This document shows, piece after piece, positions 28,091 to 29,264 of a DNA stretch of 38,122 nucleotides. Source of the DNA: Nitrospiraceae bacterium (GTDB taxonomy: Bacteria; Nitrospirota; Thermodesulfovibrionia; UBA6902); NCBI GenBank assembly GCA_003599425.1, contig QZKC01000080.1, forward strand, positions 1 to 38,122, in the 5' to 3' direction. The notes beneath the pieces are model-generated. The model was not told where the DNA came from and did not search any database. It worked only from the letters and a program-made list of their open reading frames with translations. The position numbers were made by a program, and so were the translations under genes. Within the stretch, counting starts at the first letter, position 1, and the number at the start of each line of letters is the position of its first letter.

Positions 28091-28108
28091 CTGCGAGGAG
28101 AAATTGAT

Positions 28109-28276
28109 ATGAAATGCAAGAAATGTAACGGGAAGCTTGATATCAGAATCGGCTGAAGGTCAGTCCAGTTGGTCTGCATGGAGTGCAGCCGGATTTTCTC
28201 ACTGGATGAATATATCGATGAATTAGATGCAAACACCTGGGAGAAATTATCGAATCGTTCTTGCGACAGGTTATAG
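28109..28276 (+). CDS. Dual-CxxC small selenoprotein (TGA read as selenocysteine)
   Basis: 55 residues if the in-frame TGA at 28154-28156 is read as selenocysteine (residue 16). GAGGAG (28095-28100) lies 8 bases before the ATG. The protein has CKKC at 3-6, Sec16 in IGUR, CMEC at 23-26, then FSLDEYIDELDANTWEKL and a final CDRL. This matches my recollection of the small 'dual CXXC motif (seleno)protein' family, in which the Sec position can be Cys. A SECIS-like hairpin follows the TGA directly. An ordinary gene caller would miss it because the TGA splits it. The role is unknown, with a redox or metal site likely. The alternative is a nonsense-mutated Cys form. Confidence 0.75.
28157..28190 (+). 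promoter_or_regulatory. Bacterial SECIS-like stem-loop
   Basis: Directly after the TGA, pairs C28161-G85, A62-T84, T64-A82, C65-G81, C66-G80, A67-T79, G68-C77 and T69-G76 (last two digits of 281xx) enclose the hexaloop TGGTCT. There is one G-G mismatch and a bulged A. The loop is nearly the AGGTCT loop of the E. coli fdhF SECIS, and it sits 13 bases after the TGA. Confidence 0.65.
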
Positions 28277-28420: not shown

Positions 28421-28852
28421 ATGAAGACTTTATCCGCAAAGAGTAAAGACGTTGTAAAAAAATGGCATATAGTTGATGCCGATGGAATGGTTGTAGGACG
28501 GCTCGCATCAAAAGTGGCAACCATACTGCGGGGGAAAAACAAACCAATATTTACTCCCCATGCAGATACTGGAGACTTTGTGATCGTTGTCAACGCTGCC
28601 AAAGTGCGTTTTACAGGAAACAAACTCGACAATAAAATATACTATCACCATTCAGGGTATCCCGGGGGATTGAAAGAAAAAACTGCAAGGAATGTTATGA
28701 AAGATTCTCCTGAAGATATAATAATGCTGGCGGTCAGAGGAATGCTTCCCAAAAACAGACTGGGCAGGCAGCAGTTAAAAAAACTGAAAGTCTACAGCGG
28801 GCCTGAACATCCGCATAAAGCACAGAACCCTGAAATGTTAACTTTGAATTAG
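28421..28852 (+). CDS. rplM: 50S ribosomal protein L13
   Basis: 143 residues, the normal length for L13. [25 protein letters not shown], the [13 protein letters not shown] block, [23 protein letters not shown] and [14 protein letters not shown] are all classic L13. The ATG at 28421 with AAGAGG 5 bases upstream is chosen; the open frame extends 39 codons further up but through the promoter region. rpsI follows after 19 bases, the near-universal rplM-rpsI pair. Confidence 0.98.
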
Positions 28853-28871: not shown

Positions 28872-29264
28872 ATGGCAGAAATTCAATATAACGCAACTGG
28901 CAGAAGGAAAACCTCAATTGCCCAGGTATTCATAAAACCCGGCACTGGCAACATTACTGTTAACAAAAAGCCCCTCAATGAATATTTTCCCTATGAAACC
29001 ATGAAAATGATCATCCAGCAACCCCTGAACGTTGTCGGGGTCAACGGGAAATATGACCTTACTATAAGAGTTAATGGAGGCGGGGTAACAGGCCAGGCGT
29101 CTGCCATAAGACATGGCATTTCACGCGTACTCATATTGGTCAACTCGGATTTCAGAGGGAAACTAAAAAAAGAAGGTTTCCTGACGAGAGATCCAAGGGT
29201 TGTTGAGAGAAAGAAATACGGGCAAAAGGGCGCAAGAAAACGCTTCCAGTTCTCAAAGAGATAA
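28872..29264 (+). CDS. rpsI: 30S ribosomal protein S9
   Basis: 130 residues ending in KKYGQKGARKRFQFSKR, the conserved S9 tail whose terminal Arg contacts P-site tRNA. ATGRRKTSIAQVFIKPG and the GGGVTGQASAIRHGISR block are also diagnostic. AAGGAG precedes the ATG. It is cotranscribed with rplM, and argC begins 84 bases downstream on the same strand. Confidence 0.98.
   Translation: MAEIQYNATGRRKTSIAQVFIKPGTGNITVNKKPLNEYFPYETMKMIIQQPLNVVGVNGKYDLTIRVNGGGVTGQASAIRHGISRVLILVNSDFRGKLKKEGFLTRDPRVVERKKYGQKGARKRFQFSKR

Follow-up and report, generated by a model that had tools for sequence, protein, structure and literature searches.

A small selenoprotein gene of the NF041197 family, with a putative in-frame SECIS hairpin, in a Nitrospiraceae bacterium

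In bacteria, the SECIS element is a stem-loop located just 3' of the UGA, with a loop about 16-37 nt away that carries a G in its first two bases. Because the codon that inserts selenocysteine (Sec) is the stop codon UGA, ordinary gene calling cuts the gene short. Among the small selenoproteins, the NCBIfam model NF041197 (CxxC_Se_CxxC) describes the dual CXXC motif small (seleno)proteins. In the accessible part of a review on the selenoproteome of prokaryotes published in 2026, NF041197 is listed for OS_HP3 and for “hypothetical protein DW”; OS_HP3 is traced there to a 2007 paper on an Olavius symbiont, and the motif of OS_HP3 is given as RxU, that of DW as GxU (PMC13188914). According to the accessible parts of two further papers, OS_HP3 is also listed in a 2022 review (PMC9312934), and DW was described as a new selenoprotein with the deep-Sep tool, which missed OS_HP3 in Desulfosarcina widdelii (PMC12013277). 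No tested function of OS_HP3 or of NF041197 was found in the accessible portions of this literature.

The gene described here lies in a 38,122-nucleotide contig from a Nitrospiraceae bacterium (GCA_003599425.1, QZKC01000080.1), the whole of which is called the window. It was initially noticed by reading the letters of the window, and it illustrates that a small recoded gene truncated by ordinary ORF calling can be found just by reading the sequence. The features discussed are collected in Table 1.

Table 1. Positions of the selenoprotein gene, its signals and the genes that follow it in the window.
Feature	Position	Strand	Basis or remark
Selenoprotein CDS	28109..28276	+	55 residues and TAG stop; NCBIfam NF041197 member
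Shine-Dalgarno AGGAG	28096..28100	+	8 nt ahead of ATG; sequence
In-frame TGA, probable selenocysteine 16	28154..28156	+	Family alignment; Sec machinery in genome
Putative SECIS hairpin	28171..28190	+	Conserved pairs, synonymous-codon bias, predicted folds
rplM (ribosomal protein L13)	28421..28852	+	Next gene downstream; PF00572
rpsI (ribosomal protein S9)	28872..29264	+	Context; PF00380

A single TGA in a conserved reading frame

The frame consists of ATG and 14 codons, TGA at codon 16, 39 codons and TAG. TGA is the sole interruption among 55 residues, and the protein reads MKCKKCNGKLDIRIG-U-RSVQLVCMECSRIFSLDEYIDELDANTWEKLSNRSCDRL. Frame, TGA and coordinates are all as given by the initial annotation, which had also pointed to a good ribosome site, present as AGGAG, and to a 15-codon stub from standard ORF calling; indeed, standard translation ends after 15 codons. 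Coding continuity across the TGA, another of its claims, is borne out by comparison with six close relatives. In 6/6, the third codon position is the most divergent both before and after the TGA, so that both halves look protein-coding. For the relative L010, the differences from the window by codon position are 3, 2 and 11 before the TGA and 5, 1 and 19 after it; the weakest case is L011 before the TGA (3, 2 and 4).

When the TGA codon was submitted to the programs as Cys, the read-through protein matched NF041197 from position 1 to 53 of the 53-position profile, with 62.6 bits and E = 2.7e-17 (curated cut-off, 40 bits). At the level of sequence, this match is far beyond chance. It is the only match to the family at E 0.001 in its own genome, and all of the 70 family proteins submitted to NCBIfam matched the model at the same threshold. 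No Pfam match of the 55-residue protein reached its cut-off. Both CxxC motifs are present, C3-C6 and C23-C26, with U16 between them, which is the CxxC - TGA - CxxC layout first proposed.

Family members were collected from 115 loci: that of the window, 5 from Nitrospirae, Nitrospiraceae or Nitrospira contigs, 29 from a search of the phylum and 80 taken by place. The loci examined are most, not all, of the 150 matches listed by the phylum search. Codon 16 is TGA in 109 of the 115 loci and a Cys codon in the other 6 (110 distinct genes), and no residue other than Sec or Cys was found at this position. The main table of codon 16 counts 108 TGA and 6 TGT or TGC in 114 loci; it leaves out L052, which is truncated at a contig edge; this locus likewise carries TGA and resembles L053, from the same genome, in sequence. 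Removal of 4 repeat loci gave 104 Sec genes and 6 Cys genes. Among 108 distinct proteins, C6, C23 and C26 occur in all, C3 in 107 and C52 in 94. Among distinct Sec proteins, 91/102 have C52, vs. 3/6 Cys proteins (p 0.03, without regard to relatedness).

The check on homologues asked for at the outset gives TGA or Cys throughout, and the locus is almost certainly a genuine selenoprotein gene, a further member of the already catalogued NF041197 family. The description of the gene as “missed” is correct for ordinary ORF calling; it does not hold for the family, already modelled by NCBIfam and listed in the literature.

The in-frame hairpin and the decoding of TGA

The putative SECIS hairpin of the window is made up of GG, a bulged U (28173), CUGCA, the loop UGGAG (28179-28183), UGCAG and CC, and 22 nt separate the UGA from the loop. 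It has an energy of -8.5 kcal/mol and is part of the minimum-energy fold whether the first 42, 48 or 60 bases are folded; the folded minimum has an extra U-G pair, which leaves the loop GGA.

Because the family aligns without gaps, pairs can be read by codon position, and an in-frame SECIS can be seen clearly in the alignment (104 Sec genes and 6 Cys genes). Gap-free six-pair stems with loops of 3-11 were scanned, the T of TGA being position 0. The best-conserved stem joins positions 19-24 with 35-30 around a five-base loop and is 97% paired: over the 104 Sec genes, its six pairs are formed in 606/624 cells, and the outermost pair is broken in 12/104. In the window, the bulged U stands in place of this outermost family pair and is followed by two more G-C pairs. 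In 100/104 Sec genes, a G is one of the two bases that open the loop.

Since the stem is almost invariant, there are few compensatory changes to count. The mean hairpin energy of the Sec genes is -7.23, vs. -3.39 for synonymous-codon shuffles, a value reached by 0/200 shuffled sets. For the six Cys genes, a small control because they are few and partly close kin, the mean is -2.85 vs. -2.36 for shuffles, and 54/200 sets reach it; these genes pair in 31/36 cells with G-U counted, many of the pairs being G-U. Cys23 and Cys26, located in the stem, are encoded with a TGC preference of 199 to 9, vs. 127 to 80 for Cys3 and Cys6 of the same genes, and the third base of codon 22 is C in 101/104. To judge from these counts, the synonymous codons of Sec genes are biased toward keeping the stem, a bias absent from the Cys genes. 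When the window copy is shuffled on its own, its hairpin energy over the family interval is reached by 6.5% of the synonymous shuffles. This copy is thus not decisive by itself, and the case for a SECIS depends on the family. Against Rfam, nothing in the window reached the gathering score; three sub-threshold matches close to the gene fall far short of their gathering scores and are read as chance.

The initial annotation had assigned the SECIS to another hairpin, with a TGGTCT loop 13 bases after the TGA. This candidate was set aside in favour of the conserved hairpin further 3'. It is weak (-3.2 kcal/mol) and not conserved, with 270/520 cells paired vs. 606/624 and all five pairs in only 3/104 Sec genes. 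The two hairpins are mutually exclusive because they share bases.

The genome has what Sec insertion calls for. A tRNA-Sec (74.5 bits, anticodon TCA), selB (349 bits), selA (626 bits) and selD (327 bits) were all found, in line with the selA/selB/selC/selD system that had been predicted from the gene. This selD (L131, G000:C40) has an in-frame TGA of its own in a GGU context and is a second likely selenoprotein gene. It is almost certain, on sequence grounds, that the gene is a genuine NF041197 selenoprotein gene in which codon 16 would be decoded as Sec via SelB and tRNA-Sec, with the hairpin within the reading frame directing the decoding. Selenocysteine at residue 16, as originally proposed, agrees with TGA or Cys at codon 16 in 115/115 loci and with the machinery of the genome. 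If the TGA were instead an ordinary stop, followed by a chance or decayed ORF or by an assembly error, the 15-codon translation would be explained, and TGA is a real stop elsewhere, since it ends 7 of 22 longer ORFs picked; yet exactly this codon is TGA or Cys in every locus, and the half downstream is conserved in 108 distinct proteins with third-position-biased differences, so that this explanation is very improbable. A reading of UGA as Trp, Arg or Gly, whether through suppression or through a variant code, would fit a frame that is open whatever TGA encodes, but hardly survives Cys in six relatives and Trp, Arg or Gly in 0/115 loci, termination of the same 7/22 ORFs by TGA, the presence of tRNA-Sec, selA, selB and selD, and a conserved hairpin at 22 nt from the UGA.

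Distribution, gene neighbourhood and upstream signals

Among 395 sampled genomes of the phylum, the NF041197 family occurs in 152 at E 0.001, 139 of them above the curated cut-off. tRNA-Sec was found in 161 (E 1e-9; this search used stricter filters, and weak matches can be lost) and selB in 177 at E 1e-60, 172 being above its cut-off. tRNA-Sec or selB accompanies the family in 149/152 genomes, vs. 41/243 family-free genomes. The full match contains one TGA in 143 of the family genomes and no stop in 6; the 3 genomes without a listed stop status were counted as TGA genomes, giving 146, of which 145 have tRNA-Sec or selB. Neither was found in G351, a TGA-bearing draft that is 91% complete. Of the six Cys genomes, 2 have neither, 2 have both, 1 has tRNA-Sec only and 1 selB only; hence, replacement by Cys is not a simple consequence of the loss of the machinery. 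No family match was found in 26 phylum genomes that have both tRNA-Sec and selB. tRNA-Sec is matched two to four times in several phylum genomes (e.g., G289, G079, G285, and G166), and selB two or three times in some.

No fixed operon partner was found among 109 loci, and a plasmid search gave no match. Downstream neighbours vary by lineage: relatives of rplM (18 loci), CxxCxxCC-like proteins (15), YacP-like NYN proteins (10), a purH-like gene (8; one member tested gave 131 bits, as a fragment, under the cut-off of 402) and a gene that we take to be rpsT-like (7). A UbiD-like gene lies upstream in 5/109 loci. The largest neighbour cluster (23 loci, opposite strand, both sides) was set aside, as it looks like antisense ORFs. 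PF03692 (CxxCxxCC) is a zinc- or iron-chelating domain. One member of the Cys-rich PF03692-like group was tested (L063) and scored 24.9 bits against a cut-off of 23; the 15 loci are L020, L025, L041, L043, L056, L063, L071, L075, L085, L086, L100, L120, L121, L127, and L129.

The 50 bases upstream of the start codon were scanned in 100 copies, 10 of 110 having been dropped for an unclear start or a short flank. In 30/100 copies (e.g., L067, L104, L065, and L040), a TATAAT-like hexamer is found ending 5-9 nt ahead of the start codon. The background at offsets 10-44 is about 1.3 per offset, although 8 are also found at the single offset 33; these counts take no account of relatedness. A Shine-Dalgarno-like site is present in 24/100 copies, and only 1 copy has both signals. 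This suggests that some family copies may be carried by leaderless mRNAs, the window copy having a Shine-Dalgarno sequence.

Likely structure and function of the product

An AlphaFold2 model, built from an alignment of 70 rows (70/110 distinct genes), has strands at 9-14, 19-23 and 29-31 and a helix at 41-48 (mean pLDDT 72.8, pTM 0.48). In this model, Sec16 sits in the turn (15-18) between the first two strands. Foldseek gave 0/255 matches at E 0.001 or better (best E 0.37), the listed matches, all weak, being for the most part to zinc ribbons or zinc fingers. A sequence search of the PDB with the family profile gave 21 matches with E values no higher than 1, again chiefly zinc fingers and ribbons, the best being a designed zinc finger (E 4e-4). 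Taken together, the conserved Cys, the model and the Foldseek matches suggest that four Cys hold a zinc and that the selenol stands apart from them, at the tip of the hairpin. With moderate confidence, we regard a small zinc ribbon with four Cys and with Sec in a beta-hairpin turn as the most likely product; C3, C6, C23 and C26 would hold the zinc, and Sec16 would be a reactive selenol apart from the zinc site. No literature linking a zinc ribbon with a selenoprotein was found.

A redox role of Sec16 is the most likely function, although we propose it tentatively. Sec16 would react with an oxidant or a disulfide, and the mostly conserved C52 could serve as a resolving thiol. C52 as an obligatory partner of Sec was considered and is a weak candidate: it is missing in 11/102 distinct Sec proteins and so cannot be obligatory.

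The main rival, which ranks next and is rather unlikely, is that Sec16 and the CxxC pairs bind a soft metal or metalloid (Hg, As, Ni, or Cu), in a chaperone or sensor free of redox catalysis. The Cys-rich arrangement resembles metal-binding proteins, a PF03692-like protein is encoded just downstream in 15/109 loci from four families, and Sec may serve as a metal ligand in some small selenoproteins, according to the accessible part of the recent review (PMC13188914). However, the model places Sec16 in the turn of the hairpin, ten residues away from the nearest Cys of one CxxC pair and seven from that of the other, and the PF03692-like neighbour is limited to those 15 loci, the window copy adjoining rplM-rpsI. 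Neighbouring genes, differing by lineage, do not settle the choice between redox and metal binding.

An improbable reading is that the selenol at the hairpin tip of this 55-residue zinc ribbon acts as a free-standing redox or metal switch near the translation apparatus, since the gene adjoins rplM-rpsI in its own taxonomic family and rpsT-like genes or YacP-like nuclease genes in others. Such a protein would be a Sec-based regulator and not a classical thioredoxin-like selenoenzyme. With its presence in 152/395 phylum genomes and no tested function found in the accessible literature, the NF041197 family is a fair target for biochemistry.

The product can finally be set against known systems. 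The CxxC, two-strand, CxxC part bears a weak fold likeness to RPC10 of RNA polymerase III, RPB9, the topoisomerase I ribbons and ZifS (8yoz), which, to our knowledge, are without Sec; identity to zinc ribbons and fingers is about 20% over some 30-50 columns (best 50 of 255 matches). The Sec-containing SelD of the same genome is likewise encoded by a gene with an in-frame TGA that relies on the same decoding, but it is an unrelated protein, selenophosphate synthetase, an enzyme of Sec synthesis. The closest system remains NF041197 itself, in which both CxxC pairs occur with Sec between them, as here. Within it, residues 14-16 of the window protein are I-G-U, to be compared with RxU for OS_HP3 and GxU for DW, as these motifs are stated in the accessible part of the review.
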